A stretch of 46,463 nucleotides of DNA. It comes from a virus. The notes beneath the pieces were generated by a model. That model made no database searches. It was given only the letters and a program-made list of their open reading frames with translations, and was not told the DNA's origin. Both the position numbers and the translations under genes were made by a program. Of the stretch, positions 7,524 through 46,463 are shown piece after piece (within the stretch, counting starts at the first letter, position 1; every line of letters starts with the position of its first letter). The stretch is from the IMG/VR virus record IMGVR_UViG_3300009009_000020, positions 1 through 46,463 of that record. One strand, given 5' to 3'.

Positions 7524-10500
7524 CTACTGGAACTTAATGCAGGGTAAAAGTGCAATATTATGTGGTCTGGATTCATTTGGTGGATCAGTCGTGGTTGCTG
7601 GATCTTGAGATATTGTAACTGTATTTGATGATGGATTTTGCGTAACTCCACTAATCGGTGCAGTACCAGAAGAACCACTAATTGGATGACCATGTGGATG
7701 ACTATGTGATGCAGCATCGGGATTAACAGTAATTGGATGAGTGTGGGCACCATTATTGCTTGTTCTGGCATTACTCTGCCCTCTGTTACTTCTGCCCCCA
7801 CCAGGTTGAGTTGGACCATCATTAGTATTAGTTCTATCATAACTATGATCATGTCCCCCATTACTATTAGCAGTTCCTCCATGTCCATGAGGTGCGCTTC
7901 CAGGAGCAGTTTGAGAAGCAGCAGCATAATTGCCAACAGGATGACTATGAGTTCCAGCATTAAATGGGTGACTATGATTACTAACAGAACTTCCTGGATG
8001 TGAATGGGATAAGTTTCTTGTTCCTTGTTGAGATCCAAATACTCTTCCAGAGTTTAATCCACCAGAAGTAGTATTGTCCCAACCACGAATAAATCTTCCT
8101 CTTAGATCTGGTATACCAAATGTGGTTGAACCATCTCCTGCACCAAAAGTAGTTCCAATTACATTAAATAATAAAGCATAAATTGTTCTACTAACTACAG
8201 CACCATTACAATATAGAAAATCTGTTGGTGCTGTGTTTTTCGTATACCATATAACAGTACCAATTGGTATGGGTGAAGATGCAGCACCCCCTAAACCTTG
8301 GGTTCCTTGATTACTTAAACCTTGAGTACCCTGAACACCCTGAGTACCTTGTCTACCTTGGGTTCCTTGAGTGCCTTGGTTATTGCTAAGGGGACCTTGA
8401 ATTCCTTGAGTTCCTTGAGTTCCTTGTCTTCCTTGAGTACCTTGAGTACCTTGATTATTACTAAGAGGACCTTGAGTACCTTGAGTACCTTGATTTGCTC
8501 TACCTTGAATACCTTGACGTCCTTGAGTACCTTGGAAATTGCTTAAAGTTCCTTGGGAACCTTGTCTTCCTTGAATTCCTATTGATCCTTGAGATCCCTG
8601 TCTACCAAAAATACCTTGAGATCCTTGAGTTCCTTGGTTACTTAATCCTTGAACACCTTGTCTTCCTTGAGATCCTTGAGTTCCTTGGTTGTTACTTAAA
8701 GGACCTTGAATTCCTTGAGTTCCTTGAGTTCCTTGCCTTCCTTGAGTTCCTTGAGGACCTTGAGTACCTTGCCTTCCTTGAGTTCCTTGGTTACTTAATC
8801 CTTGAACACCTTGTCTTCCTTGAGATCCTTGAGTTCCTTGATTATTACTCAGAGGACCTTGAATTCCTTGAGTACCTTGCCTCCCTTGAGATCCTTGAGT
8901 ACCTTGCCTCCCTTGAGATCCTTGAGTACCTTGATGTGCTCTACCTTGTGTTCCCTGTCTTCCTTGAGATCCTTGAAGACCTTGAGATCCTTGAGTACCT
9001 TGATGTGCTCTACCCTGAGCACCTTGAAGTCCTTGAGTACCTTGCCTTCCTTGTGTCCCCTGAAGACCTTGAGTACCTTGATGTGCTCTACCTTGAGCAC
9101 CTTGAAGTCCTTGAGTACCTTGCCTTCCTTGTGTCCCCTGAAGACCTTGAGTACCTTGATGTGCTCTACCTTGAGCACCTTGAAGTCCTTGCCTTCCTTG
9201 TGTTCCTTGAAGACCTTGTGTTCCTTGTTGTGACCTACCTTGAACACCCTGAAGTCCTTGAGTTCCCTGTCTTCCTTGAGTACCTTGAGATCCCTGAAGT
9301 CCTTGTGTTCCTTGTCTTCCTTGAGTACCTTGAGATCCTTGTCTTCCTTGAAGACCTTGTGTTCCTTGTGTACCTTGATCACCTTGAGTACCTTGCGCAC
9401 CTTGATCTCCCTGAGTACCTTGAGATCCCTGAAGTCCTTGAGTACCCTGAGTCCCTTGGCCACCTTGTGTACCTTGTCTTCCTTGTGTTCCCTGCGTACC
9501 TTGTCTTCCTTGTGTTCCTTGAGTACCTTGGAGTCCTTGTGTACCTTGAAGTCCTTGAGTACCTTGGGTTCCTTGATTACCTTGAAGTCCTTGAGATCCT
9601 TGGAATCCTTGAGTTCCCTGAGATCCTTGTCTTCCCTGAGTACCTTGAGATCCCTGAAGTCCTTGAGTGCCTTGAAATCCTTGAGTTCCTTGAGTGCCTT
9701 GAGTTCCTTGATTACCCTGAAGACCTTGAGATCCTTGAGTGCCTTGAGATCCTTGATTACCTAATCCTTGAGTTCCTTGAAGACCTTGTGATCCTTGTCT
9801 ACCTTGAAGTCCTTGAGTTCCTTGAGTTCCTTGCCTTCCCTGAGTTCCCTGAGTTCCCTGAGTACCTTGTGTTCCTTGTCTACCTTGTAAACCTTGAGTA
9901 CCCTGAGTACCCTGATCACCTTGAGTACCTTGCCTACCTTGTGTTCCTTGTCTACCTTGTAAACCTTGAGTACCCTGAGTACCCTGATCACCTTGAGTAC
10001 CTTGAATACCCTGATCACCTTGAGCACCCTGAGTACCCTGATCACCTTGAGTACCCTGAGTACCCTGATCACCTTGAGTACCTTGTGTGCCTTGATCACC
10101 TTGTACTCCCTGATCTCCTTGAAGTCCGACAGAACCAGAAAATCCCTGAGTACCTTGAGTACCTTGAGTTCCTTGTGTACCTTGAGTTCCTTGCCTTCCT
10201 TGAAGTCCTTGAGTTCCTTGAGTTCCTTGAGTAGATTGAGATCCTTGAAGACCTAATCTACCTTGAGTCCCTTGCCTTCCTTGAAGTCCTTGAGTTCCTT
10301 GGGTGCCTTGGGTGCCTTGGGTGCCTTGAGTAGATTGAGCTCCTTGATTTCCAAGACCTTGAACTCCTTGAGTACCCTGAGTACCCTGATCACCTTGCAC
10401 TCCTTGTGTACCCTGATCACCTTGAGTACCTTGAGTTCCCTGATCACCTTGAGTACCTTGAGTTCCCTGATCACCTTGTGTACCCTGATCACCTTGAGTA

Positions 10501-11189
10501 CCTTGAGTACCCTGATCTCCAGATAAACCTTGAGTACCCTGAGTACCCTGATCACCCTGAGTTCCCTGATCACCTTGAGTTCCTTGAGTTCCTTGTCTAC
10601 CTTGAGTTCCTTGAGTTCCCTGAAAACCTTGAGATCCTTGAGATCCTTGAGATCCTTGTGTTCCTTGTCTTCCCTGAAGACCTTGTGTTCCTTGAGATCC
10701 TTGAGATCCTTGAGATCCTTGAAATCCTTGAGTTCCTTGAGTTCCTTGAGTTCCCTGATCACCTTGAAGACCTTGAGTTCCTTGAATTCCTTGAGCACCT
10801 ATACCTTGGGTACCTTGAGTACCTTGAGTACCCTGAAGACCTTGTGATCCTTGAGTTCCTTGATGTGCTCTTCCTTGAGCACCTTGCCTTCCTTGAGATC
10901 CTTGAAGACCTTGAGAACCTTGTGTTCCCTGAGCACTTCCAGATAAACCTTGCGTTCCTTGAGTAGATTGTGTTCCCTGAAGACCTTGAGATCCCTGAAG
11001 TCCTTGAGTACCCTGAACACCTTGATTACTTAATCCTTGAGTACCTTGAACTCCTTGAGAACCTTGACTTCCTTGAGCGCCTGGATCTGGCAATCTTACC
11101 CAAGAATTTCCATTCCATCTCCACTTACTTCCACCGTAAGCATAAACTTCATTAATAAGTGGGTTTGCCGGAAAATTAAGTATTGACAT
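7524..11189 (-). CDS. Collagen-like tail fibre with C-terminal tail-collar domain, 1221 aa
   Basis: Domain order: an N-terminal cap (residues 1-35, YAYGGSKWRWNGNSWVRL), about 930 residues of Gly-X-Gln triplets dominated by GTQ with short breaks such as LSNNQ, RAHQ and LSNQ, then a tail-collar domain (from about residue 970: PIGTVIWYTKN, FLYCNGAVVS, TFGIPDLRGRFIRGWD). The tail is rich in His, Gly and Ser (repeated SHSHP and THSHP), as in many phage receptor-binding tips where His residues bind metal. Triplets of this kind form collagen-type triple helices in phages and bacteria. The near absence of proline is unusual. A late promoter (11231-11238) precedes it. Probably a long, thin host-binding fibre. 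Confidence 0.9.
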   Translation of the reverse strand: MSILNFPANPLINEVYAYGGSKWRWNGNSWVRLPDPGAQGSQGSQGVQGTQGLSNQGVQGTQGLQGSQGLQGTQSTQGTQGLSGSAQGTQGSQGLQGSQGRQGAQGRAHQGTQGSQGLQGTQGTQGTQGIGAQGIQGTQGLQGDQGTQGTQGTQGFQGSQGSQGSQGTQGLQGRQGTQGSQGSQGSQGFQGTQGTQGRQGTQGTQGDQGTQGDQGTQGTQGLSGDQGTQGTQGDQGTQGDQGTQGTQGDQGTQGTQGDQGTQGVQGDQGTQGTQGVQGLGNQGAQSTQGTQGTQGTQGTQGLQGRQGTQGRLGLQGSQSTQGTQGTQGLQGRQGTQGTQGTQGTQGTQGFSGSVGLQGDQGVQGDQGTQGTQGDQGTQGTQGDQGTQGAQGDQGIQGTQGDQGTQGTQGLQGRQGTQGRQGTQGDQGTQGTQGLQGRQGTQGTQGTQGTQGRQGTQGTQGLQGRQGSQGLQGTQGLGNQGSQGTQGSQGLQGNQGTQGTQGTQGFQGTQGLQGSQGTQGRQGSQGTQGFQGSQGLQGNQGTQGTQGLQGTQGLQGTQGTQGRQGTQGTQGRQGTQGGQGTQGTQGLQGSQGTQGDQGAQGTQGDQGTQGTQGLQGRQGSQGTQGRQGTQGLQGSQGTQGRQGTQGLQGVQGRSQQGTQGLQGTQGRQGLQGAQGRAHQGTQGLQGTQGRQGTQGLQGAQGRAHQGTQGLQGTQGRQGTQGLQGAQGRAHQGTQGSQGLQGSQGRQGTQGRAHQGTQGSQGRQGTQGSQGRQGTQGIQGPLSNNQGTQGSQGRQGVQGLSNQGTQGRQGTQGPQGTQGRQGTQGTQGIQGPLSNNQGTQGSQGRQGVQGLSNQGTQGSQGIFGRQGSQGSIGIQGRQGSQGTLSNFQGTQGRQGIQGRANQGTQGTQGPLSNNQGTQGTQGRQGTQGTQGIQGPLSNNQGTQGTQGRQGTQGVQGTQGLSNQGTQGLGGAASSPIPIGTVIWYTKNTAPTDFLYCNGAVVSRTIYALLFNVIGTTFGAGDGSTTFGIPDLRGRFIRGWDNTTSGGLNSGRVFGSQQGTRNLSHSHPGSSVSNHSHPFNAGTHSHPVGNYAAASQTAPGSAPHGHGGTANSNGGHDHSYDRTNTNDGPTQPGGGRSNRGQSNARTSNNGAHTHPITVNPDAASHSHPHGHPISGSSGTAPISGVTQNPSSNTVTISQDPATTTDPPNESRPHNIALLPCIKFQ
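8288..11083 (-). repeat. Degenerate 9-bp collagen-coding repeat array
   Basis: About 2.8 kb of minus-strand 9-bp units of the type GGT-ACT-CAA (Gly-Thr-Gln), many organised into 18-36 bp higher-order repeats. Nearly identical blocks recur around 9000-9210. The array lacks stops in several frames on both strands, so it produces long false ORFs on the plus strand. Confidence 0.9.
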
Positions 11190-12762: not shown

Positions 12763-15700
12763 TTACTTACCTAATGCTATAATTAAAGGAGTTACTGTAT
12801 TTAACAGACTTTGACTAAATGCTCTTCCGGTGATTGTTCCGGTTAATTGATTGATTACAACATCATCTCCAATTTGGAAGTTTCCTGCTTGGTTTGTACT
12901 GGTATAAACAACCTGACCACCATTACGTTTATCAACTTCATTTGCCTGAATTGAAACTCCACCTAAAGCTGGTTTTGCTGTAAAGATATTTGTTCCAGCT
13001 CCAACCCATTCCAATGAAATTGATGTTGCAATTTGTAAACTAATTCTGGAGAAATAAACTGTCGTTCCAGTACCAATATTATTATTTAGATTTTGTGTTA
13101 GGATAATTGTAGAAATTCCATTTTCTGGCAACGATGCACTTTCAATGCCATAGTATATTGGGTACATGACTGGTGCTGCAGATGCACCAGAACCTCCACC
13201 TCCAGTAATTTGTATGTTAGGAGGGTCTTCATATTGAGTTCCACTACTAATAACATCAATAGAAACTATTTTACCATTTTCAATATTTGGAGATCCTTCT
13301 GCCCTAATTCCATTTGGTCCACTTGGGAAGTCAAATGTAATTACGGGTGGATTACTTTGAGAATATCCACTTCCACCATCTAATATTTTGATAGTATCAA
13401 CAAAATAATACAATCTATCAAAATAAATTGCCTGTCCATCATAAGGTCTATAATCACCAACACCAGAAACAGTAATAATTGATGTTTCTATTTCGGCATC
13501 AGTTACAACTTCTCCAGTATACCTATAGATTGACTTGGACGTATTATCCCCAACACCATCAGAAACTAGACCATAATTACCAAATGATGCGTTAGAGTTT
13601 GTAATATCACACTGACCACCCGATTTTGTAAATATTCCAATATCATCACAGATTGTGAAAATAGAAACTAATTGTGAATATGCACCATTTGTAATAGAAA
13701 CTCCAATACCACCTTGATTATATTGCGTATAAGAGTCAACACTCATTGTACCAGTTACACCAATATCATCCTGATCTCCTGGTTCTGCATTAAATCCATC
13801 AACCTTCATTCCAATACTATCCCCAATGAAGTTTGTAGCATTCCTAATGTAGGGCCCCTGAGTAATTGGTCCCACACCTCTTGAATATGGGGGAAGAACT
13901 ACACCACCAGTAATATAATAATGTGGTATGGTCGATTTTCCAACATTTACAACAAAAGTATCTCCACTGTCAGAAACTGATAAAACCTCAAAATCATATC
14001 CTCTATTTCCTGATGGGAATAATGTTGTTGTTCCTGCACCACTAAGACATGCAAATTCTAAGTTCCTTAGAGTTACAAAGTCTCCTTTTCTTACTGAAGA
14101 ACCTGGGGAAACAATCGTTGTTATTCCAGTTGAATTATCATATTTTGCTTCGGTAACATTAATTGTCCTATCAATAACATATCCACCAGAAACATATGTG
14201 TGTGGTATGGTAGAAACTCCAGTATAAACATCAAACGAATCATCTGGATTTATTTTAGAAACATAAAATTCATATCCATAATAACCTGATGGGAATTTTT
14301 GTTGAGTTGTAGGACCTCCAGATGAACAAGAGAAAACTAAATCTCTAATTTCTATTCTGTCACCAACTTTAACTTGCAATCCGGGAGCTATTAATGTTGT
14401 TTTTCCAGAAGTCTCTTCATAAACTGCACTAGTAATACCAGTAAGAGTTTCAAATCCTTTACCACGATTTCCTGGATATGTTGTATTAAATCCAACATAT
14501 GAGAATGAAGTTGAACCAAATCCAACAACTGATGTCACAACACCTACACATGATTTCATAGCAGATGTAACATCAACACAAGAATTGATTACATTATTAT
14601 ATCCAGTTTCTGGATCTATCTGAATAGAAAGATCTTTAACCTGAGTGACACTATTTTGGAAATTTGTATACTTTTGAATAGTTCCTCCAGAAACATATGT
14701 GTGAGGAAGAACTGTTTTTCCAGCAACGAATTCAAATGTATTTGGTCCAACTACAGATTTGACTGGGAATATGTAATTAAATGTTCCATCTGGATAAGTT
14801 GTAGTTGTATAGTTTGCAGTTAGCGATCCTCCAGTTACATAATCATGATCTAAAGTTGAAGAACCAACATTTAACACAACTTTATTTGAAGTATAAAGTG
14901 CTGGATAAGAATTTAAGTTTCCATCAGAAACCACAGATGTAAGTATTGCAATTAAATTATCAATATTTGATTGGACATCCGCACAGGAACTCGGATCAGT
15001 ATTAAAACCTGTAACTGGATCTGCAATAATTGATAAATCTTTAACATTTAATTGATTTGTAATTGCCTTCTTGGCATAATCACGAACTACATTAAATGCA
15101 GTTATACTCTCTGCCTCTTCACCAACTAAACCATTGGAGATTGGATCTCCATTTTTATTAAAATATGCTCTAATTGCTTCACGAATGTACTTATTAGTTC
15201 CATATTTTATATCTTTTATCAAAGCATCAACAATATAACCAATATCTCTACGACACTTATTCTCACCAGTTACAAAGATTCCAGAATTAATTCTGATAGT
15301 ATTAAGAGAAGAAAGTGATCCTGCAGAAACAACAGACGTGATAATTGATGTTAAAGTATCTAATGTATTTTGAACATTTGCGCAGGAGGATGGTGAAGTG
15401 TTAATTCCAGTTGCAGGATCTGCAGTAATTGTTAAGTCCTTGACAGTAAGTTGATTTGTAATTGCCTGCTTCATTAAGTTTCTTGCCTGATTAAAAGCAT
15501 AAACAGATTCTGTTTCTTCACCAACCAATCCATTAGAAATTGGTGCTCCATTATTAAAGTATTGTTTTACAAATTCAATAGAATATGAATTTCCTCCAGT
15601 AAAGATATCTATAGAAACTGCATCAATAAAGTATCCAATATCTCTCTTACACTTTGTTTGAGTTGTAGAAATTCCTGGATATGCAACAACCGTAGCATTC

Positions 15701-18700
15701 CAAGAACTATCAACAATTTCAGTTCTATTTTGCTGGATCAATCTATAAGAATCTTTAAATCTTGAGAATCTTGTAGTTTGAACATCATTCGGGAAGTAAA
15801 AATCCGAATGACCAATCGCAATTGCTGCAAGAGATTTGTCAATAATTTCAATTCTATTCTTTTGAATTAAATTAGCAGCATCTATATAACGATTATCTGC
15901 GGTTGCAATTACCTTAAATTCATATCCAAGATTTCCTGATGGATAATATGCTGTAGATGGACCACCACCACTATTACATTCCCAAACAAGATTTTCTATT
16001 TTAACTTTTTTACCTGGCTCAATATATAAATGTGCTCCAGTAGTTGTTCCCAACCCAACGGCGGTAATGGTTGTAATTCCACTTATACGATCATAAGATG
16101 CAGTTGAAATTCCAAACACGGGTGTATAAAGTTTGGATATATTACCACCATATTGGTAAGAATGATCTAAAGTAGATTTTCCCACATTAACAACAAATGT
16201 TTTAGAATCAAGAACATCCTGAACTGTAAATTCATATCCAAGATTCCCCGAAGGATATGATGCCGTTGAAGGACCACCTCCACTATCACATTCAAATATA
16301 AGATTTTCTATTTTTACTCTATCTCCGGATATAATCTTTAACGATGTTGAAGTTTCTATTGTTGAAATTCCAGTCAATCTGTCATAAGAGGCAGTTACGA
16401 CACCAACGGGGAAACCAGCAGATCCTGAATCGCATGAATAAGTTAATCCCTGAACTTTAACAGGATCATTTCTAGTTAAACCATGATTAACTGCAGTAAC
16501 TGTAGTAATTCCTGTTATACCATCATAAATCGCATTTGTTACTACAGTTCCTAGACCAACTGGATATCCACCCCATGAACAATTATTAATAACTGCTCTT
16601 GCAACATTAAATGAATAATCTAGAGTTGATATAGTTTGATTAACTTCTCCTGGATTTTTTAGAATTCCAGTTTTTAAATTCCAATTATCATCATAGTATG
16701 CCTTACCTGCATCAACACATCTAGAATTTCCACCTCTTGTAATATCATGAATAATACATTTCCAAATATCCTTAATATCATCCGCACAGTCATTACTTTC
16801 TAATGTCACTCCAAATCTAATTTGTGGGGCATTTGATGTTGTTCCAGCACCAATCATATTAGTAACAATTCCAACTAATTGTCGAACTGTAGTTCCAACA
16901 CCAACACACCCACCTTCAACAGCAATAACTGATAGGTTTTTAATTTGCGTTACACTATTTCCAACTCCTTGATAAGAAATGGGAGGAGTTAAATTGTTAA
17001 TCACATGAGTTGCAATTCCTGCAGCATAATCTAATGCAGCAACAGTTGCTTGAGAAACACCAACACCAGTAATATGGATTAATCCACCAGAAGTATTAAA
17101 ATATGAATAACCCGCACCAATTGATTTGCGATTACTGTTTGCTTTTAGGTCATAAGATACTGCCTGCATAATGCTGACAACGTCTTCTTTGCAATTAATA
17201 TAACTGCTTATTCCAAGTGTGAAATTATATCCGGATGGCGATGTTAGAAAACCAACTGCCTCGGCGGCAATATAATCTAAATTAGAATCAATTAATTTTG
17301 CAGCATCCTGCTCTCTGTGATTTCCCGCAAACCCACTAAAACCACTTGTAAGGAATCCAACAGATTCTTTTGCAATATAATCTAGATTAAAACGAATCAT
17401 TCTAGCAGCATCAAAGAATCTATCCGTTGTTACTCCTAGTAAAGGTTGAAGAGCAATTATTGCAGCACCATTTGTAGAATTCTGTCCTATAAAACTTACA
17501 TCAGTTACATGGCATCCATTATTAACATAAAATAAGTCTCTGTCAGGGAATTTTGGAGTAACTACACAATTGCGAAGTTCCGTACCCTCAACAGATACTG
17601 TTTTTGCCAAGATAATTGGATTTTCTTCAACATAAACTCCAGGAAATACTTTTATAGTGTCTCCAGTAAGTGCTACTGATGCGGCAGATTTAATAGTTCT
17701 CTTGGGATAGTTTTCTGATAAACCTGTATTATTATCATCACCATTTTGAGATACGTAAATCGTTTTTCCAATAGGTCTATATGCGTCAATTTTTACTACA
17801 CCTTTTCCTGGATCTTGAGTTGCAGTTAAATCAATACCTATACCAGGAACAAGTTGTGTAACAATGCCTACAAGATTTACACCTCCACCATAAAATTCAG
17901 TTGCTCTTGCTGTTCCTCTTACAGTTAAATTATCAGTTATTACATTTGTATTGATTCCGATAGATCCTGTTCCTGGAATATAAGAAAGTTTTTCTGAAGA
18001 TGCAAAAACAGTTGATAGAGGAGTTATCGTTGGATCTTCAATAAAACTAACATATCTTGTAAGATTTGTTGTATTGTCATCAACTACATCAAATATTGCA
18101 GATCCTTGTAATCCTTGTAATCCTTGTAATCCCTGCAATCCTTGGGCACCTTGATTTCCTTGTGTACCCTGAGTGCCCTGATCACCTTGAGTACCCTGAA
18201 CGCCCTGATCACCTTGAGTTCCTTGAGTTCCTTGATTTCCCTGCGATCCTTGGGTTCCCTGTTCACCCTGAGTACCCTGATCACCTTGTGTACCTTGAGT
18301 TCCTTGCCTCCCTTGAGTTCCTTGAGTTCCTTGAGAACCTTGAGTACCTTGTCTACCTTGAGTACCCTGAGTTCCTTGAGTTCCTTGCCTCCCCTGAGTA
18401 CCTTGAGTACCTTGAGTACCCTGAGTGCCTTGTCTTCCTTGGGTGCCTTGGGTGCCTTGAGTACTTTGATTTCCTTGTGTTCCCTGTTTTCCTTGGGTTC
18501 CTTGAGATCCCTGAGTACCTTGAGATCCCTGAGTACCTTGATCACCTTGAAGACCCTGAACACCTTGAGTACCCTGATCACCTTGAGTACCCTGCGCTCC
18601 TTGATCACCTTGAGTACCTTGAGTGCCCTGATCACCTTGAGTACCTTGAGTGCCCTGATCACCTTGAGTACCCTGAACGCCCTGATCACCTTGAGTACCT

Positions 18701-20823
18701 TGAGTACCCTGATCACCTTGAGTACCCTGAAGTCCTTGAGTTCCTTGTCTACCTTGTAAACCTTGGGTTCCTTGAGTTCCTTGAGTTCCTTGAGAACCTT
18801 GAGTTCCTTGCTTTCCCTGAGTTCCCTGAGATCCTTGTCTTCCCTGAGTTCCCTGAGTTCCTTGAGTTCCTTGAGAACCTTGAACACCTTGCTCCCCCTG
18901 AGTGCCCTGAGTTCCTTGAGCACCCTGATCACCCTGAGTACCCTGAGTACCTTGGTCACCTTGAGTTCCTTGGATTCCCTGAGTACCTTGGTCACCTTGA
19001 AGACCCTGGGTTCCTTGTGTGCCCTGATCACCTTGTGTACCCTGATCACCTTGAGTACCTTGAGTGCCCTGATCACCTTGAGTACCTTGAGTACCTTGTG
19101 TACCCTGAGTACCTTGAGAACCTTGAGAACCTTGAATTCCTTGATCACCCTGAAGACCCTGGGTTCCTTGTGTGCCCTGATCACCTTGTGTTCCCTGAAC
19201 ACCTTGGTCACCTTGAAGACCCTGAGTACCCTGATCACCCTGAGTACCCTGAGTACCCTGAGTACCTTGATAACCTTGGGTTCCTTGAGTGCCTTGGGTT
19301 CCTTGAGTACCCTGATCACCTTGAGTACCTTGAGTACCCTGATCACCTTGAGTACCTTGAGTACCCTGATCACCTTGAGTACCCTGGGTTCCTTGAGTTC
19401 CCTGATCACCTTGAGTTCCCTGAGTTCCCTGAGTACCTTGAAGACCTTGAGTTCCTTGAGTTCCCTGCCTACCTTGAGTACCTTGAGTACCTTGAGTACC
19501 CTGATCACCTTGAGTACCTTGAGTACCCTGATCACCTTGAGTACCTTGAGTACCCTGATCACCTTGGGTACCCTGATAACCTTGAGTACCTTGAGTACCT
19601 TGAGTACCTTGTGTGCCCTGATCACCTTGAGTACCTTGAGTGCCCTGATCACCTTGAGTACCTTGAGTGCCCTGATCACCTTGAGTACCTTGAGTGCCCT
19701 GATCACCTTGAGTACCTTGAGTTCCCTGATCTCCCTGAGTACCCTGATCACCTTGAAGACCTTGGGTACCTTGAATACCCTGATCACCTTGAGTACCTTG
19801 AGTACCCTGATCACCTTGAGTACCTTGAGTACCCTGATCACCTTGAGTACCTTGAGTACCCTGATCACCTTGAGTTCCCTGAAGACCTTGAGTACCTTGA
19901 ATACCTTGATCACCCTGTAAACCTTGAGTGCCTTGTAAACCCTGAGTGCCTTGATATCCCTGAGTACCCTGAGTACCCTGAGTACCTTGATCACCTTGAG
20001 TACCCTGAGTACCTTGAGTACCCTGAGTACCTTGATCACCCTGAGTACCTTGAGTACCCTGATCACCCTGAACTCCTTGAGTACCCTGATCACCCTGAGT
20101 ACCCTGATCACCTTGAATACCCTGAAGTCCTTGAGTGCCTTGAATACCTTGATCACCCTGCAGTCCTTGAGTACCTTGATAACCTTGGGTTCCTTGAGTT
20201 CCCTGAGTACCTTGGTCTCCTTGAGTACCTTGAGTTCCTTGATAACCTTGTGTTCCTTGAGTACCTTGGGTTCCTTGGGTTCCTTGTGTACCTTGATCAC
20301 CTTGGGTACCTTGATCACCTTGAGTACCCTGATCGCCCTGAAGACCTTGAGTTCCTTGGAAGTTACTTAATGCACCCTGATTACCTTGAAGACCTTGAGT
20401 ACCCTGATCACCTTGAGTACCTTGAGTTCCTTGAAAGTTACTAAGAGATCCCTGAGTTCCCTGAAAGTTGCTTAATGCACCTTGTATTCCTTGATCACCT
20501 TGAGTACCTTGAAGTCCTTGAGTACCTTGATTGCTAAGACCTTGAAGACCTTGAATACCTACAGAACCTTGAGCAGAGGCATATAAAAGATCATTCCAGT
20601 ATGTTTCTCCATCGCCAAATTTAAATCTACGAGTATCAGATTCAATTCCAATAACACCTTTTTTTAAAAGAGGATTTTCAAGAGTCCATTCTTCTGCAGT
20701 TTTTACAACCTGTCCAATTGAACTATCAGTTTTTATGTCACCATAAACTGTAATGCCAGCATAAAATGTGGCATGATCATTATAAAACTGCTGTAAACTT
20801 GAATAATTAGTATTCCCCGACAT
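12763..20823 (-). CDS. Giant collagen-like beta-helix virion protein, 2686 aa
   Basis: Order: an N-terminal cap with a Mtd_N-like motif (residues about 58-80, ESDTRRFKFGDG..W), about 820 residues of Gly-X-Gln triplets (about 86-907), then about 1780 residues of non-collagen sequence. This opens with a beta-helix-like stretch (GKTIYVSQNGDDNNTGLS, KVFPGVYVEEN) and ends with ITNSNASFGNYGL and GGSGY beta motifs. Within it lie repeated modules: several copies of a helical unit (C.RDIGY..DA...D) and at least four copies of a beta unit (KIENL.F.C.SGGGPST, YPSGN.GYEF). The protein follows the 182-aa spike-like gene by 1 nt. Probably the largest virion protein and a long baseplate-attached fibre. Which end attaches is not known. 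Confidence 0.9.
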   Translation of the reverse strand: MSGNTNYSSLQQFYNDHATFYAGITVYGDIKTDSSIGQVVKTAEEWTLENPLLKKGVIGIESDTRRFKFGDGETYWNDLLYASAQGSVGIQGLQGLSNQGTQGLQGTQGDQGIQGALSNFQGTQGSLSNFQGTQGTQGDQGTQGLQGNQGALSNFQGTQGLQGDQGTQGDQGTQGDQGTQGTQGTQGTQGTQGYQGTQGTQGDQGTQGTQGTQGYQGTQGLQGDQGIQGTQGLQGIQGDQGTQGDQGTQGVQGDQGTQGTQGDQGTQGTQGTQGTQGDQGTQGTQGTQGYQGTQGLQGTQGLQGDQGIQGTQGLQGTQGDQGTQGTQGDQGTQGTQGDQGTQGTQGDQGIQGTQGLQGDQGTQGDQGTQGTQGDQGTQGTQGDQGTQGTQGDQGTQGTQGDQGTQGTQGTQGTQGYQGTQGDQGTQGTQGDQGTQGTQGDQGTQGTQGTQGRQGTQGTQGLQGTQGTQGTQGDQGTQGTQGTQGDQGTQGTQGDQGTQGTQGDQGTQGTQGTQGTQGYQGTQGTQGTQGDQGTQGLQGDQGVQGTQGDQGTQGTQGLQGDQGIQGSQGSQGTQGTQGTQGTQGDQGTQGTQGDQGTQGDQGTQGTQGLQGDQGTQGIQGTQGDQGTQGTQGDQGAQGTQGTQGEQGVQGSQGTQGTQGTQGRQGSQGTQGKQGTQGSQGTQGTQGTQGLQGRQGTQGLQGTQGDQGTQGTQGDQGVQGTQGDQGTQGTQGDQGTQGTQGDQGAQGTQGDQGTQGVQGLQGDQGTQGSQGTQGSQGTQGKQGTQGNQSTQGTQGTQGRQGTQGTQGTQGTQGRQGTQGTQGTQGRQGTQGSQGTQGTQGRQGTQGTQGDQGTQGEQGTQGSQGNQGTQGTQGDQGVQGTQGDQGTQGTQGNQGAQGLQGLQGLQGLQGSAIFDVVDDNTTNLTRYVSFIEDPTITPLSTVFASSEKLSYIPGTGSIGINTNVITDNLTVRGTARATEFYGGGVNLVGIVTQLVPGIGIDLTATQDPGKGVVKIDAYRPIGKTIYVSQNGDDNNTGLSENYPKRTIKSAASVALTGDTIKVFPGVYVEENPIILAKTVSVEGTELRNCVVTPKFPDRDLFYVNNGCHVTDVSFIGQNSTNGAAIIALQPLLGVTTDRFFDAARMIRFNLDYIAKESVGFLTSGFSGFAGNHREQDAAKLIDSNLDYIAAEAVGFLTSPSGYNFTLGISSYINCKEDVVSIMQAVSYDLKANSNRKSIGAGYSYFNTSGGLIHITGVGVSQATVAALDYAAGIATHVINNLTPPISYQGVGNSVTQIKNLSVIAVEGGCVGVGTTVRQLVGIVTNMIGAGTTSNAPQIRFGVTLESNDCADDIKDIWKCIIHDITRGGNSRCVDAGKAYYDDNWNLKTGILKNPGEVNQTISTLDYSFNVARAVINNCSWGGYPVGLGTVVTNAIYDGITGITTVTAVNHGLTRNDPVKVQGLTYSCDSGSAGFPVGVVTASYDRLTGISTIETSTSLKIISGDRVKIENLIFECDSGGGPSTASYPSGNLGYEFTVQDVLDSKTFVVNVGKSTLDHSYQYGGNISKLYTPVFGISTASYDRISGITTITAVGLGTTTGAHLYIEPGKKVKIENLVWECNSGGGPSTAYYPSGNLGYEFKVIATADNRYIDAANLIQKNRIEIIDKSLAAIAIGHSDFYFPNDVQTTRFSRFKDSYRLIQQNRTEIVDSSWNATVVAYPGISTTQTKCKRDIGYFIDAVSIDIFTGGNSYSIEFVKQYFNNGAPISNGLVGEETESVYAFNQARNLMKQAITNQLTVKDLTITADPATGINTSPSSCANVQNTLDTLTSIITSVVSAGSLSSLNTIRINSGIFVTGENKCRRDIGYIVDALIKDIKYGTNKYIREAIRAYFNKNGDPISNGLVGEEAESITAFNVVRDYAKKAITNQLNVKDLSIIADPVTGFNTDPSSCADVQSNIDNLIAILTSVVSDGNLNSYPALYTSNKVVLNVGSSTLDHDYVTGGSLTANYTTTTYPDGTFNYIFPVKSVVGPNTFEFVAGKTVLPHTYVSGGTIQKYTNFQNSVTQVKDLSIQIDPETGYNNVINSCVDVTSAMKSCVGVVTSVVGFGSTSFSYVGFNTTYPGNRGKGFETLTGITSAVYEETSGKTTLIAPGLQVKVGDRIEIRDLVFSCSSGGPTTQQKFPSGYYGYEFYVSKINPDDSFDVYTGVSTIPHTYVSGGYVIDRTINVTEAKYDNSTGITTIVSPGSSVRKGDFVTLRNLEFACLSGAGTTTLFPSGNRGYDFEVLSVSDSGDTFVVNVGKSTIPHYYITGGVVLPPYSRGVGPITQGPYIRNATNFIGDSIGMKVDGFNAEPGDQDDIGVTGTMSVDSYTQYNQGGIGVSITNGAYSQLVSIFTICDDIGIFTKSGGQCDITNSNASFGNYGLVSDGVGDNTSKSIYRYTGEVVTDAEIETSIITVSGVGDYRPYDGQAIYFDRLYYFVDTIKILDGGSGYSQSNPPVITFDFPSGPNGIRAEGSPNIENGKIVSIDVISSGTQYEDPPNIQITGGGGSGASAAPVMYPIYYGIESASLPENGISTIILTQNLNNNIGTGTTVYFSRISLQIATSISLEWVGAGTNIFTAKPALGGVSIQANEVDKRNGGQVVYTSTNQAGNFQIGDDVVINQLTGTITGRAFSQSLLNTVTPLIIALGK
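18101..20567 (-). repeat. Collagen-coding repeat array with perfect 27-bp higher-order units
   Basis: About 2.5 kb of minus-strand 9-bp Gly-X-Gln codon units. Exact 27-bp tandem units coding GTQGTQGDQ occur in runs, for example 19620-19710 and 19790-19870. Such arrays are prone to slippage and recombination, so copy number may differ between virions. Confidence 0.9.
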
Positions 20824-40235: not shown

Positions 40236-41561
40236 CTAAAATCCTAAGTGTTTTTGTCTTACAAAATCTAAGTTATAAAATGTATATGATAATGGTAATT
40301 GATCATTATTAAATGGATACTTATATGGGTTAGTATTAACCCAATCAATACCAGTGTGCCAATGTGGTCCCCACTTATAGTAAATATACCACATTTCGTT
40401 CAAGATGCGACTGTGATGCATCTTACTTTCCAAAGATCTATCAACTCTCCAAGTTTGAGATCCTGTTGTTTCATAATCTTTTTCACCATGAAGATATGGA
40501 TACTCAACATTAACTCGCTTAATACCATACAACATTGTTCTAATATAGTAATCAACATCTTCAACATATGCTGGATAACAATTTTCATCAAATAAACCAC
40601 ATTCTTGAACAACCCAATCTTTCAACAAGAAAATATCCCAGGCACCCCTATTACCATGGACCATACCAACATTTAAATCTTTTGCTTTTTTAAGCATATT
40701 TTCCAAAAATCCTGGTGTAAATGCAACATCATGATTTGAAATAATCCAATATGGAGCATTCATACCACATTTAATAGTCATGTTCCAGGATCCAGAAACT
40801 CCGATATTTGCTGGCAGATGACAAACTTTTATCTGATTAATAAATGGGTGATTTTCCTTTGCCAAATTATCTAAATCCTCAGTTAATTCACCCCTACCAT
40901 TATTATCAAATATAAAAACTTGGTCAACGGGATAATCAATACTATCAATTAACCTTTTAATCCAATGAAACCCATTTACGATTGGAATTCCAATAACAGG
41001 AATTGGTTCTTTTTCGGATTCTTTTGTTTTTTTCAATCCCCAAAAATATAAATCTTTGGAGTTATGATTAACTTCAAAATAATAATAATCAAAGTGATCC
41101 TCAAAATTAATATGTTCACGAAAATCACTTTCATTTAAATTCCTGTAATAATCCCACCCAATATCAACCGTGAGTGGAGAATCCTCCGGACGTGTTCTCG
41201 TAGTTCCATGTTCTGCTCTTCCATCACTGGCACAAGTAAAAAATACCAAACCACCAGGACGACATAGTCTAACCATGTTTACAAATGTTTCAAGCCAATA
41301 TGGATTATGCTCAAAACATTCTAATGAACAGACAACATCATAAGCATTATCTGGTGCATTATATTTTTGACCTTCACAAACTACATCAACACCATCACCT
41401 GGTCCAACATCAACACCAACATAAGAACATTTTTCAAAAAAATCTCTTACGGTTCCGTTAATGTTTAAACTACCAATCTCCAAAACAAACTGGTCTTTAA
41501 AATATTTACCAGCCTTCTTTTTTAAATTTTCAACAAACTTTTTTTGTTCATTATGTGCCAT
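40236..41561 (-). CDS. SAM methyltransferase fused to GT2 glycosyltransferase, 441 aa
   Basis: Residues about 20-170 are a class I methyltransferase: VLEIGSLNINGT (SAM-binding loop), SYVGVDVGPGDGVDVV, AYDVVCSLECFEHNPYW and RPGGLVFFTCAS. Residues about 187-441 are a GT2-like glycosyltransferase: PVIGIPIVNG, VFIFDNNG, ANIGVSGSWNMTI, a metal-site-like NHDVAF where DxD is expected, and YVEDVDYYIR. The fusion suggests adding a sugar and methylating it, or a phage form of sugar-cap chemistry. Substrate not known. It is 3 nt after the multi-domain glycosyltransferase gene. Confidence 0.85.
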   Translation of the reverse strand: MAHNEQKKFVENLKKKAGKYFKDQFVLEIGSLNINGTVRDFFEKCSYVGVDVGPGDGVDVVCEGQKYNAPDNAYDVVCSLECFEHNPYWLETFVNMVRLCRPGGLVFFTCASDGRAEHGTTRTRPEDSPLTVDIGWDYYRNLNESDFREHINFEDHFDYYYFEVNHNSKDLYFWGLKKTKESEKEPIPVIGIPIVNGFHWIKRLIDSIDYPVDQVFIFDNNGRGELTEDLDNLAKENHPFINQIKVCHLPANIGVSGSWNMTIKCGMNAPYWIISNHDVAFTPGFLENMLKKAKDLNVGMVHGNRGAWDIFLLKDWVVQECGLFDENCYPAYVEDVDYYIRTMLYGIKRVNVEYPYLHGEKDYETTGSQTWRVDRSLESKMHHSRILNEMWYIYYKWGPHWHTGIDWVNTNPYKYPFNNDQLPLSYTFYNLDFVRQKHLGF

Positions 41562-41564
41562 TTT

Positions 41565-44500
41565 TTACTCCAAATTAAGATTCATTTTCTTTAGGTTTTC
41601 TTCAAGACGGGGTTTATGTTCCTCAAGAATTTCATAGTTATTTTTAATATCTAGTAGTAAAGTTTTTGCTTCTTCAACTTTACCCCACCACCAAGCACCA
41701 ACAGCTTTCTCAAATAGTAAACCATATTTACCAGGATATTCAACATCAGTTCTAAGTGGTTTTGAATTAAAATCACAATATCTAAGTCCTCTATCGGCAT
41801 GGATATAACAATCTTGCCACCATTGGCGTTTTTCTGCAAATCTACTCAACAGGAAATAAGCTTCTGGTCTAGATGGAAGTAAACATAAAGCCTGCTCAAG
41901 TAAAGATTTTGAACTACCATCACGAGTTCCTTGCTTTGTATAACAATATGATGCTCTTATTAATGCTTCATATGCAAGATTATCATCTATTGCTCTTTCT
42001 GCACATCTTAAGAAATAAGAAACCGCTGGAGCAGTGTGACTTTCTTTTTCATACCAAACTCCAAGATTAAAATTATGATCTGGATTTTCAGTATCTAGAG
42101 AATACTTATTAAGAAGATCTGTTAATTCATCATTCTTAGTTTTTTTTATATCTAAGATATTTGGAATTAAATACTGCTCAACATTCGGAAGACTGAAAAT
42201 TATTGGCGGAAGTTCTGTAATTGGATAAGGTTTCAATACAATATTTACATTTCCAGATGGAGAAGTTAATTCATCCTTAAAATTATACTTTTCCATATAT
42301 TCCCACAGTTCTTCTTGAGAATAATCTTTACCTAAAAATGTTTTCAAATTTTCATCATAATGACAAAAAGATTTAAATTTATTAATTCTATTTTGATTGT
42401 TCCCCATCCAACTAAAATGCCATCCCAAATCTTGACATACTTCCCCATTATGAGTTACATATCTAATTTCATACCCCCTTCTCATGTACTCTGCTCTAAT
42501 TTCAGTCGGAGTATTAATCATCAGGTGCTTTTTAAAGCACATAAACATAGATTTACTCCAAGAAGAAGGAGATCCATCTAAATTATACGCTCTATAATCT
42601 GCCCTTCCTTCAAGGTGTACAAGAGGAACTTTAAAAATATAATCTTTATTATTTTTTGCAGATCCATGTATAAATGGTATATTATTAGGACTAACAATTT
42701 CATCACAATCACTAATTATAAAAAATGTATCATCATCAAATTCAGAAATAATATTACACAGATAATCTCTTTGAATCCTTTCTCTACTTGCTATTTTTTG
42801 ATTTGGATTAAAATGAAGATCATAGTCTGAAGGATTTCCTGGATTGGAAAGATCCGCTTCAATAACTCTAATCTTATTTTTTGGAAGTCCAAGTTCATCA
42901 ATAACTTTATTACAACTATACTCTTTTGGAATACCACTATGCGTATAATTTGCATCAATAATTACAAACAAATCAACATGATCTCTTAAAAGTTTTACTC
43001 TCAATTCGAGTAATTCTTTTTCGTTAAAATACGGAAAACAATCAACAATCTTTGGTTTATTAGGCATAATAGTTTCATCCATGTTCACGGGTTTAATTTC
43101 AGTAAAAAACTTGGGAGTTTCTTTGTCTTTATTTTTCCACCATTCAATAACTTTTTCATGCGATATGTAATGGTTTTTCTTTTGCCCATCATTTACATCA
43201 GCATCTTTACCAACAAAGGTAGATTGAAACTTAACTTCTTCAGCAAATAATGGAATAGTGTAGCATTTACCAAGACTTGCAAAAAGAATATTTTCAATCA
43301 GAGGCATTGTTGTTTGATTGGGAATTTCAAGACAATACCCATCATCACGAATATAAGTATCGATTAATTTTTTAGCATATTCTCTCATGACAACATAAGC
43401 AGATGCCCCCCAATCATCCCAATACCTTTCACGAAGTTCAAATGTATCGTACTCTCCACGAATAGTAAACAACTGAAGACAATCGACATCTTTAGGTATA
43501 TTAGATATAAATTCTTTCCAAGTAAAGTTCCAATGCTCCACCGTTTCCAAACTTAAATCATCTTCACAGAAAAATCCATAATCTTCTTCGGTTGTTTCAT
43601 ACCATTCTTTTATTGCTTTTAAGTGAGATACTACACATCCCTTTGTTCCTTCGTTTAAACTATCAACATATTTTCCGTATACATGATCATTAGACTCAGA
43701 AAATCTTTTTGAAATAACTGCCGTAGGAACAATTCCATAAAAAGAAAATTCAGACTCTAAATTATCTCTTCGGTCTAAACTTTCTTCTAAAGAAACATAA
43801 TATACGGATGGAAACTCACTCAATTTATCACTCATATTTTTTTCCGCAAAATAATTTTGGTCATCTATTTTTTCAATATTCCATTTTGTTTTTGGTGGAA
43901 CATAGTAATTAATTATCTCAGCACACATATTTTTATTATTTTTAATATGTGTTTGAGAAATCCAATACTCAGTTTGCCACTTTTCTTCACCATCAGGAGT
44001 TAAATCTAATCTTTCTTTTATTCCTGATTCAACATACCCTTTAAAATTTTCGAATCTTTTTTTATCTGGATGTGGTATATGAATTACATTATAATCATAA
44101 TTTAACTTCTTATGCTCTAGTCCATATAGTTCTAGTCTAGTACAAATTTCATCATCCTCAAAAGCATAATATTTTGTTAAATTTTCATTGTACCCACCTA
44201 TTGAAAGTAAATTCTCTTTGGATACTAGGAGTAACCCAGTAAGATACTTAAAGAATTGGCAATAAGAATTAAAATAAGTGCTCCATTCATCAAGGGTTAA
44301 ACATGTCAAATCAACCATGGAGTTCCCAGTTTCTTTATCAATAAATTCTGGACTCTTAAAATTATGTTTTCCAGAAACAAAACTATTTTCATCAACTGGA
44401 TATTTGTTAAAGAAGTTTTCATACGGATTGAGTATGTAATCCGTATCAACTTTTAAAATATAATCTCCCTGTGCCAAACTAATCGCCAAGTTTAGTGGTT

Positions 44501-44702
44501 GAGGTTGATTAAAATATTTTTGGTCGGAGACAGTAATTACTTTTATTCTTGGATCTAATTTAGTTAAATGGTTGATTGGTTCATCAGAACTCCAATCAAC
44601 TATAATAATTTCTTTTATACAATCAAAAAGAAGCCAAGAACTAAGAGAAACTTTTAATGCATTTAAACGATTTTTACAAGCACAAACTAAAGATATGTTC
44701 AT
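41565..44702 (-). CDS. Multi-domain glycosyltransferase: GT2 + GT25 + GT17 + TPR-like, 1045 aa
   Basis: Four parts read in order. (1) GT2, residues 1-265: SLVCACKNRL, VDTDY (85-89) as metal site, and FEDDEICTRLELYG (181-194), typical of the C-terminal part of galactosyltransferases. (2) GT25-like, about 297-520: VYYVSLEESLDRRDN, GCVVSHLKAI, FFCEDDLS (377-384). (3) GT17-like, about 550-850: KIVDCFPYFNEKELLELRV, VIIDANYTHSG, FFIISDCDEIV (660-670). (4) TPR-like helical repeats, about 865-1040: NFNLGVWYEKE, ALIRASYCYTKQG, PEAYFLLSRFAEKR. Each catalytic acid cluster is present, so all three may work. It probably builds a trisaccharide or longer chain. GT25 includes collagen galactosyltransferases and LPS enzymes. 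Confidence 0.85.
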   Translation of the reverse strand: MNISLVCACKNRLNALKVSLSSWLLFDCIKEIIIVDWSSDEPINHLTKLDPRIKVITVSDQKYFNQPQPLNLAISLAQGDYILKVDTDYILNPYENFFNKYPVDENSFVSGKHNFKSPEFIDKETGNSMVDLTCLTLDEWSTYFNSYCQFFKYLTGLLLVSKENLLSIGGYNENLTKYYAFEDDEICTRLELYGLEHKKLNYDYNVIHIPHPDKKRFENFKGYVESGIKERLDLTPDGEEKWQTEYWISQTHIKNNKNMCAEIINYYVPPKTKWNIEKIDDQNYFAEKNMSDKLSEFPSVYYVSLEESLDRRDNLESEFSFYGIVPTAVISKRFSESNDHVYGKYVDSLNEGTKGCVVSHLKAIKEWYETTEEDYGFFCEDDLSLETVEHWNFTWKEFISNIPKDVDCLQLFTIRGEYDTFELRERYWDDWGASAYVVMREYAKKLIDTYIRDDGYCLEIPNQTTMPLIENILFASLGKCYTIPLFAEEVKFQSTFVGKDADVNDGQKKNHYISHEKVIEWWKNKDKETPKFFTEIKPVNMDETIMPNKPKIVDCFPYFNEKELLELRVKLLRDHVDLFVIIDANYTHSGIPKEYSCNKVIDELGLPKNKIRVIEADLSNPGNPSDYDLHFNPNQKIASRERIQRDYLCNIISEFDDDTFFIISDCDEIVSPNNIPFIHGSAKNNKDYIFKVPLVHLEGRADYRAYNLDGSPSSWSKSMFMCFKKHLMINTPTEIRAEYMRRGYEIRYVTHNGEVCQDLGWHFSWMGNNQNRINKFKSFCHYDENLKTFLGKDYSQEELWEYMEKYNFKDELTSPSGNVNIVLKPYPITELPPIIFSLPNVEQYLIPNILDIKKTKNDELTDLLNKYSLDTENPDHNFNLGVWYEKESHTAPAVSYFLRCAERAIDDNLAYEALIRASYCYTKQGTRDGSSKSLLEQALCLLPSRPEAYFLLSRFAEKRQWWQDCYIHADRGLRYCDFNSKPLRTDVEYPGKYGLLFEKAVGAWWWGKVEEAKTLLLDIKNNYEILEEHKPRLEENLKKMNLNLE

Positions 44703-44733: not shown

Positions 44734-45534
44734 TTATATAGTTATCCAATCTGGGCAGTATAAATCTTTAGTATCCCAATTTTCTAAGTCTCCAGAAAAC
44801 CATTTTTTTGGTGCTACGATTTTTTTACTGTCTGACAACCACGCACCCCACCAACTATAAGAACTGTTAGCAATAATATGATAATTGCACATACTCATCA
44901 AACATAAATCAATTAAAGTATTATTAGATTTAGAAATTTTAAACCTATCATTCTTAAAGAAAAATTGTTTCTCACACCATTCAGGATCATCAGAAAAAAC
45001 TAATACTGGAATGTCTTCAGAAAAAATTTCTAGAGCAGATTGATAATAATTTAAATCAAGTAAATGAAAGTTTGAATCAGTTACATAATCAGTTCTTCGT
45101 ATATGTAAAGAAATTATTTCAGAATTACTAAACATTCCTTTAATATAAGTTTCACACATTTTTTTTGTAAAATTTCCAAAAGAAAAATCATTTTTTATAT
45201 CGTCTTTGATATGCTTAAAATATTTTTCAGTTTGAAAATATCCAAATAAATCAATATCATTCGGACAATTATAAAACAAATCTTCCTCAAAAGCAAAAGA
45301 AGATTCGTTTCTTGTTTTATAATCCGTCATCCCAACTTTATTGTTTATAATATTAGGAAAATTATATAAGTTTACATCAGATGCCTGAACTCTTTCATCA
45401 TTAGATCCAAATACTCCAGAAAGAGGAATACAAAATTCATGATTATTTTGAATTGCAATTCCCTTTAGTGCAGCATATTGGAACATTTGATTTCCCAATC
45501 TACCCCTATTTCCAAGTTTGTTAAATGATATCAT
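44734..45534 (-). CDS. GT11 alpha-1,2-fucosyltransferase-like protein, 266 aa
   Basis: GRLGNQMFQYA (11-21), HIRRTDYV (144-151) and HIIANSSYSWWGAWL (219-233) are the three hallmark motifs of the GT11 fucosyltransferase family (PF01531), which transfers fucose from GDP-fucose. Full length for bacterial members (about 260-300 aa). The start overlaps the beta-propeller gene stop (ATGA). GDP-fucose would have to come from the host, as no synthesis genes are in the window. Confidence 0.88.
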   Translation of the reverse strand: MISFNKLGNRGRLGNQMFQYAALKGIAIQNNHEFCIPLSGVFGSNDERVQASDVNLYNFPNIINNKVGMTDYKTRNESSFAFEEDLFYNCPNDIDLFGYFQTEKYFKHIKDDIKNDFSFGNFTKKMCETYIKGMFSNSEIISLHIRRTDYVTDSNFHLLDLNYYQSALEIFSEDIPVLVFSDDPEWCEKQFFFKNDRFKISKSNNTLIDLCLMSMCNYHIIANSSYSWWGAWLSDSKKIVAPKKWFSGDLENWDTKDLYCPDWITI

Positions 45535-46463
45535 TCTTCAAAGATATATTGTTTTACAAATTTTTGAGAAACTCTAAGAAGATATGCAGCATTATCTTGA
45601 AAACCAAAGGTCATTAAATAATCATCTCCATATTCACACATACCAACAGCAAATTCAATATTTGCATTTAAGAAAGAAAACTGACGTGAAACTTTAACTA
45701 TATTCCAATCATTATCCCAAACAACAAACCTATGCCTATAAACACCATCCTTCCTTCCTGCATCACTTCTTGTTAGATAAGTTTCATGATTAAGACAGAA
45801 TCTATGATTTTCATTATAAGGAATAATTTGAGAACCTCCACGAAGATCAATACATCCAAGATCTTTCCATTGAGTTAAAACAACTTGATCTGTGGTATTT
45901 TCTTCTAAATTATAACGAACTACTTCAGTACCATTAGTCCATTTGACAAAATGGAATGGCATATCAATAATTGGCATCCAATTTTTTTCACAATAAGATC
46001 CTTCATCACCTTTATGTCCAGGTGTAGGAATTCGATATTGGTTTATTTCTTTTACTGCACCATCTTCAGAAATTTCAATCTCAGAAAGTTCCATTCTTCC
46101 TGTTCCAATTTTATCTAAATCTCTACGTACACCACAAACATAAAGTTTTCCATTCCATCTAACAATTCTACAATCCTCAAGACCTACAAATTCCCAAAGC
46201 TCTTTATCTGGAAATTTAGAAGTATCAATTCTTTCATACCACTTCAATTGCATATTATCATCTATTTCACCCATAACATTATTTGTTCTCAACCTAACAT
46301 CATTTTCTGGATGAATATAAACTAATGGTCCCCAATGATGTTCGAATTTTCTTTTTTCTGAATGATATAAGGTATAGTTAATATTTCTAAGATTAACTAA
46401 AATTCTTCCATTATCATTATAAATTGAAGGATTGGTAATTGCAGGTCCTTTTAAATATTGTGA
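45531..46463 (-). CDS. Beta-propeller protein in the glycosylation cluster (5' end beyond window)
   Basis: Open to the window end, so 310 residues of a longer protein. Repeated blade-like strands include NPSIYNDNGRILVNLRNINY, WEFVGLEDCRIVRWNGKLYVCGVRRD, GRMELSEIEI, and NIEFAVGMCEYGDDYLMTFG. The Asp/Glu-rich blade starts and ELWEFVGLEDCR resemble five-bladed propellers of the GH130/GH43-like superfamily, but I cannot assign catalytic residues. It could be a glycoside phosphorylase or a sugar-binding partner of the glycosyltransferases. Stop overlaps the GT11 start. Confidence 0.7.
   Translation of the reverse strand, partial: SQYLKGPAITNPSIYNDNGRILVNLRNINYTLYHSEKRKFEHHWGPLVYIHPENDVRLRTNNVMGEIDDNMQLKWYERIDTSKFPDKELWEFVGLEDCRIVRWNGKLYVCGVRRDLDKIGTGRMELSEIEISEDGAVKEINQYRIPTPGHKGDEGSYCEKNWMPIIDMPFHFVKWTNGTEVVRYNLEENTTDQVVLTQWKDLGCIDLRGGSQIIPYNENHRFCLNHETYLTRSDAGRKDGVYRHRFVVWDNDWNIVKVSRQFSFLNANIEFAVGMCEYGDDYLMTFGFQDNAAYLLRVSQKFVKQYIFEE

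Follow-up and report, generated by a model that had tools for sequence, protein, structure and literature searches.

The window analyzed here is the whole 46,463-nucleotide stretch of IMG/VR virus record IMGVR_UViG_3300009009_000020 (positions 1 to 46,463). It is part of a T4-like cyanophage whose gp32-like, PhoH and thymidylate-synthase region is nearest to Synechococcus phages S-SRM01 and S-SKS1 (gene identities were taken in part from hit annotations). Near one end of the window lies a tight operon on the minus strand, in which a partial gene termed MGP is followed by a GT11 gene, by a large open reading frame encoding three glycosyltransferase modules and a tetratricopeptide (TPR) domain, and by a methyltransferase-GT2 fusion. 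The window also encodes two giant collagen-like tail fibers, whose triplets are almost all G-X-Q and are rich in GTQ; the X position is mostly Thr, with Asp, Leu, Arg and Ser. The positions of these features are collected in the table; handles of the form L001 denote individual loci examined in this study.

Table. Features of the window (minus strand throughout) and the evidence for each.
Feature	Coordinates	Length or residues	Evidence and remarks
GT2-GT25-GT17-TPR protein	41565..44702	1045 aa	ATG start
GT2 module	43848..44702	residues 1-285	DxD 86/88 and ED 182/183; D86 and D88 kept in 17/17, E182 and D183 in 18/18 aligned relatives with the module
GT25 module	43083..43847	residues about 286-540	EDD 380-382, kept in 25 of 26 aligned rows
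GT17 module	42198..43082	residues about 541-835	D665, kept in 12/12 aligned relatives with the module
TPR hub module	41568..42155	residues 850-1045	constant domain of the family; conserved alignment
MGP, GH130-like (beta-propeller family) enzyme	45531..46463		cut by the window end; full copy at L001:589-1581, 331 aa
GT11 (fucosyltransferase-type)	44734..45534		Pfam 3.3e-26; PHROG 2644; start overlaps the MGP stop by 4 nt
Methyltransferase-GT2 fusion	40236..41561		starts 3 nt after the stop of the 1045-aa protein
Collagen-like tail fiber, candidate acceptor (inferred)	12763..20823	2686 aa	263 counted G-X-Y triplets, Y=Gln in 260, X=Thr in 145
Collagen-like tail fiber, candidate acceptor (inferred)	7524..11189	1221 aa	266 counted triplets, X=Thr in 115

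An earlier note, made from the sequence alone and without stating a strand, described the large open reading frame as a phage protein that joins three different glycosyltransferase families to TPR-like repeats, and this observation is confirmed. The motifs on which the note relied are present: VDTDY (residues 85-89) and FEDDE (181-185) in the GT2 module, FFCEDD (377-382) in the GT25 module, and KIVDCFPYFNE (551-561) and SDCDE (664-668) in the GT17 module. The note had set two outcomes that would count against it, namely a domain search that failed to recover GT25 or GT17, and mutated catalytic residues in all relatives; neither was observed. Pfam places GT17 (PF04724, 9.8e-12, 45 vs 26 bits), GT2 (PF00535 8.3e-7, PF10111 3.8e-7, PF02709 2.5e-6) and GT25 (PF01755, 4.9e-6, 27.0 vs 24 bits) above their gathering scores, although GT25 falls just under the Pfam cut-off in many relatives. 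PHROG 2835, a phage “glucosyltransferase” family, covers the GT25 part at 1.3e-49, and the acidic residues are kept in the aligned relatives that carry each module. A phmmer search of the whole protein against the PDB returned only weak TPR and beta-1,4-galactosyltransferase hits. Pfam does not call a TPR in this one sequence; however, the profile of the C-terminal domain of about 196 aa matches solved consensus TPR structures (9qhb 1e-11, 8bu0 8e-8), and several relatives hit Pfam TPR models above or near cut-off. The protein has no transmembrane-like stretch.

The arrangement is not an assembly artifact. Nine non-redundant complete open reading frames share exactly the GT2-GT25-GT17-TPR order, and longer chains of up to 1478 aa exist. 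Against the nearest relative, silent-changed codons exceed amino-acid differences in every module (GT2 76 vs 17, GT25 69 vs 47, GT17 82 vs 41, TPR 51 vs 25). The same modules also exist as separate genes (L015, L044, L087), but a one-off fusion, recent accident or mis-assembly of three neighboring glycosyltransferase genes is already refuted by these relatives.

The three glycosyltransferases are not the constant part of the system. A first scan of IMG/VR gave 74 relatives, and mapping of modules on them showed that GT2, GT25 and GT17 come and go while the TPR domain stays. A scan with the TPR alignment found at least 560 IMG/VR relatives, of which the best 80 were kept. Nearly every first-round locus that reaches far enough upstream has MGP there, 55-100% identical even where the GT11 is only 42% identical. 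With MGP as bait, genome assemblies returned five loci, all with the TPR gene next door. These contigs (L152-L156) are filed under bacteria and an archaeon (Rhodobacteraceae, Verrucomicrobia, Chitinophagaceae, Pirellulales, Woesearchaeota), yet several carry recognizable phage structural genes and they are probably viral: L152 has an apparent T4-type terminase start, and L155 and L156 have apparent tail-fiber sequence. With distant MGPs as bait on viral contigs, 76 of 77 informative loci have the TPR gene, usually starting within a few nucleotides of the MGP stop or overlapping it; five loci (L224, L270, L273, L277, L278) fuse MGP and TPR in one open reading frame, and some have a TPR-only protein of 169-210 aa beside MGP. 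The loci listed are partly redundant and do not exhaust the matches; all MGP open reading frames together form 99 clusters at 90% identity. A distant MGP homologue in phage DSL-LC01 (24%) has no annotated TPR gene beside it, so the pairing may not extend to the whole superfamily. MGP and TPR are therefore a functional pair, and the glycosyltransferases of the 1045-aa protein are accessories. In other loci (L252, L256, L259, L261, L276), MGP is fused to an FkbM methyltransferase and a radical-SAM domain (872-882 aa), and in L106 a RuBisCO large-chain-like protein (L106:6615-7865, Pfam 2.3e-43) is encoded inside the phage glycan operon between MGP and the TPR gene.

The identity of MGP rests on one profile-profile comparison. 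Two phage records call it beta-mannosyltransferase or MGP, but searches with Pfam and NCBIfam gave nothing solid, its profile returned nothing from the PDB at E up to 1, and the Pfam GH130 model does not match it even at E 10. The best single-sequence PDB hits, though weak (E 0.5), are a gut mannoside synthase. Alignment of the MGP profile with that of 36 GH130 proteins by hhalign gives 89.6% probability (E 1.9e-6), colinear over 250 columns including the G-(V/L)-E-D-x-R motif; on this single profile pair, the criterion of profile similarity over the whole length is satisfied. Control comparisons of MGP with GT2, GT25, GT17 and TPR profiles, of those glycosyltransferases with GH130, and of reversed MGP with GH130 give at most 0.8%. 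MGP is thus called GH130-like rather than a GH130 member. GH130 and GT108 share a five-bladed propeller and act on beta-mannosides (PMC8950772). A beta-mannosyl-type transfer by MGP is therefore likely but unproven; no fold was modeled for this or any other protein of the locus, and no activity was assayed.

Modules are exchanged rapidly around the TPR domain. GT2, GT25, GT17, methyltransferase, WavE, radical-SAM and DUF6445 modules attach to it in 35 architectures among 109 non-redundant complete TPR proteins, ranging from TPR alone to an FkbM-GT2-GT25-GT17-TPR-methyltransferase chain of 1478 aa, and many family members have no glycosyltransferase in the TPR chain at all. On a tree of the TPR domain alone, at least 57 changes of architecture are needed (shuffled mean 81.8, so that architecture is heritable but quickly changing), and GT17 in the chain changes 9 times. 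The tree is a quick one with several long branches, and individual placements are unsure. Modules also move between neighboring genes: the GT2 domain (GT2b) of the gene downstream of the 1045-aa protein is fused to the TPR protein in L046 and L052, and the methyltransferase of that gene leads a GT17-TPR protein in L017. The closest relative (L081) has a sulfotransferase in its glycan cluster (L081:2289-3071, PF13469 6.6e-16), so the glycan may be sulfated. Upstream of this cluster, L081 encodes a protein of seven RCC1 repeats (L081:1093-2271, Pfam 1e-68), which is unusual in a phage and is possibly part of a tail protein.

Genomic linkage points to a virion protein as the acceptor. The gene directly upstream of MGP has collagen-like triplets in 21 of 91 clusters, whereas the gene directly downstream of the TPR gene has them in 1 of 93 (Fisher p 1.4e-6). 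About 20 of 75 upstream neighbors match tail-fiber PHROG families; none of the top 25 downstream families is a tail fiber. In the metagenome-assembled phage DSL-LC02, the pair sits between collagen-like and tail-fiber genes, and its genome paper reports GDP-mannose dehydratase and GDP-L-fucose genes (PMC10611076). In the cultured Synechococcus phage S-SCSM2R, the pair follows a gene annotated as baseplate wedge/tail pin. However, the idea that the TPR protein always lies next to a collagen-like fiber was rejected as a rule and is kept as an enrichment, since about three quarters of upstream neighbors are not recognizably collagen-like or tail fibers, and some are other glycan genes or unknown. 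In the window, the cluster is about 20-30 kb from the fibers, and the DNA upstream of MGP is missing. Thr in the X position as a universal acceptor is likewise not supported: X is most often Thr, but mostly Asn in L127 and L129, which leaves the linkage residue open.

The best explanation, held with moderate confidence, is that the 1045-aa protein is the modular subunit of a phage protein-glycosylation system. In this view, the TPR domain docks a virion protein, most likely a tail fiber, often with collagen-like G-X-Q repeats, and the neighboring MGP enzyme, probably a beta-mannosyl-type transferase, carries out the step common to all members, probably the addition of the first sugar. The GT2, GT25 and GT17 domains, with the neighboring GT11 and methyltransferase-GT2 proteins, would extend and decorate that glycan, and each lineage would make its own glycan on a conserved docking platform. 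The analysis itself demonstrates the domains, the conserved active-site motifs, the linkage and fusion of MGP and TPR, the exchange of modules, and the excess of tail-fiber and collagen-like genes just upstream; the acceptor, the identity of the sugar, the order of the steps and the benefit to the phage are inferences, for which there is no biochemistry, and the evidence for a glycan on a structural protein is genomic linkage only.

The interpretation offered in the earlier note is only partly supported. The note had read the protein as an uncommon one-chain assembly line for an oligosaccharide, with TPR repeats that suggest docking on a protein substrate as in O-GlcNAc transferase. Three glycosyltransferase families plus a TPR in one chain is right, and docking of a protein by the TPR is the best-supported reading. 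Yet the three-glycosyltransferase chain is only one of about 35 module combinations, and the constant unit is the TPR with the upstream MGP gene, which the note did not mention. The comparison with O-GlcNAc transferase holds only for mechanism, because Pfam finds only GT2, GT25 and GT17 type domains in the chain; these are GT-A-type families, working with a GH130-like enzyme, and no GT41 catalytic domain lies with the TPRs.

Alternative readings concern both the target and the role of the TPR. Cyanophage glycosyltransferase genes are often described as LPS or cell-wall genes (PMC9602691), and WavE (LPS synthesis) modules occur in L064 and L120; the enzymes might thus modify a host surface glycan (LPS or exopolysaccharide) during infection, with the TPR only holding the enzyme complex together. 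This is considered unlikely, because neither the protein nor MGP has a membrane segment, tail-fiber and collagen-like genes are enriched directly upstream, and no polymerase, flippase or lipid-carrier gene was recognized, though neighbors were not searched exhaustively. Glycosylation of phage DNA at a modified base to block restriction is how the glycosyltransferases of DSL-LC02 were interpreted (PMC10611076), and viral glycosyltransferases can hypermodify DNA (a 2024 paper cited in PMC12619734). This reading is considered very unlikely: a conserved TPR and an invariant GH130-like partner are not parts of known DNA-glycosylation systems, the linkage is to tail genes, and no base hydroxylase was found in the window, although the genome is incomplete and the search was not exhaustive.

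A narrower alternative, which can hold together with virion-protein glycosylation, is that the TPR assembles the MGP-glycosyltransferase complex for channeling and does not bind the acceptor. MGP-TPR fusions and near-total co-occurrence fit a contact between the two, and the linkage data do not distinguish an MGP-binding TPR from an acceptor-binding one. This possibility is regarded as doubtful but not negligible, since fusion does not exclude acceptor docking and the TPR of FlmG interacts with the acceptor (PMC7591256).

Both principles of the proposed mechanism have precedents, and the closest working analogues are FlmG and chlorovirus A111/114R. In FlmG of Caulobacter, a TPR domain joined to a glycosyltransferase domain interacts with the flagellin acceptor (PMC7591256); there the TPR is N-terminal, and the single glycosyltransferase is of the GT-B superfamily. 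Chlorovirus PBCV-1 A111/114R is one viral chain with three glycosyltransferase functions that build a glycan on a virion protein (PMC7826918). It is a eukaryotic-virus protein without the TPR hub or MGP partner, and its domains were not compared by sequence here. Mycobacteriophages carry glycans on virion structural proteins (Freeman et al. 2023, Cell Host Microbe; cited in PMC12619734), the acceptors being capsid and tail tube; no TPR-MGP core is known there. Known GH130/GT108 beta-mannoside phosphorylases and transferases act on mannan or oligosaccharides, none on proteins (PMC8950772 for GT108). SunS-type peptide S-glycosyltransferases, which were not compared by sequence, have GT2 and TPR in one chain, with the TPR for peptide recognition; they have one glycosyltransferase only and the substrate is a bacteriocin peptide. 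The system described here combines the principles of FlmG and A111/114R and adds an invariant GH130-like partner and rapid module exchange. No description of an MGP-TPR system was found in the open-access papers searched, although such absence is weak evidence, and the system would be new in kind if protein transfer by MGP were shown. A broader reading, possible but tentative, is that of a widespread phage system in which a GH130-fold enzyme acts as protein glycosyltransferase with an obligate TPR docking partner, onto which phages splice interchangeable glycosyl-, methyl-, oxygenase-like and radical-SAM modules, giving serotype-like glycan diversity on tail fibers, including their collagen-like repeats.

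Phage genomes, and cyanophages above all, carry many glycosyltransferases whose targets (DNA, LPS) are guesses. This family gives a concrete, testable rule: a conserved TPR and MGP core, linked to tail genes, with modules that change repeatedly. If the reading is right, it explains many of these genes, describes a cytosolic modular glycan assembly line, and shows that phage fibers carry variable glycans, with likely consequences for adsorption and host interaction.
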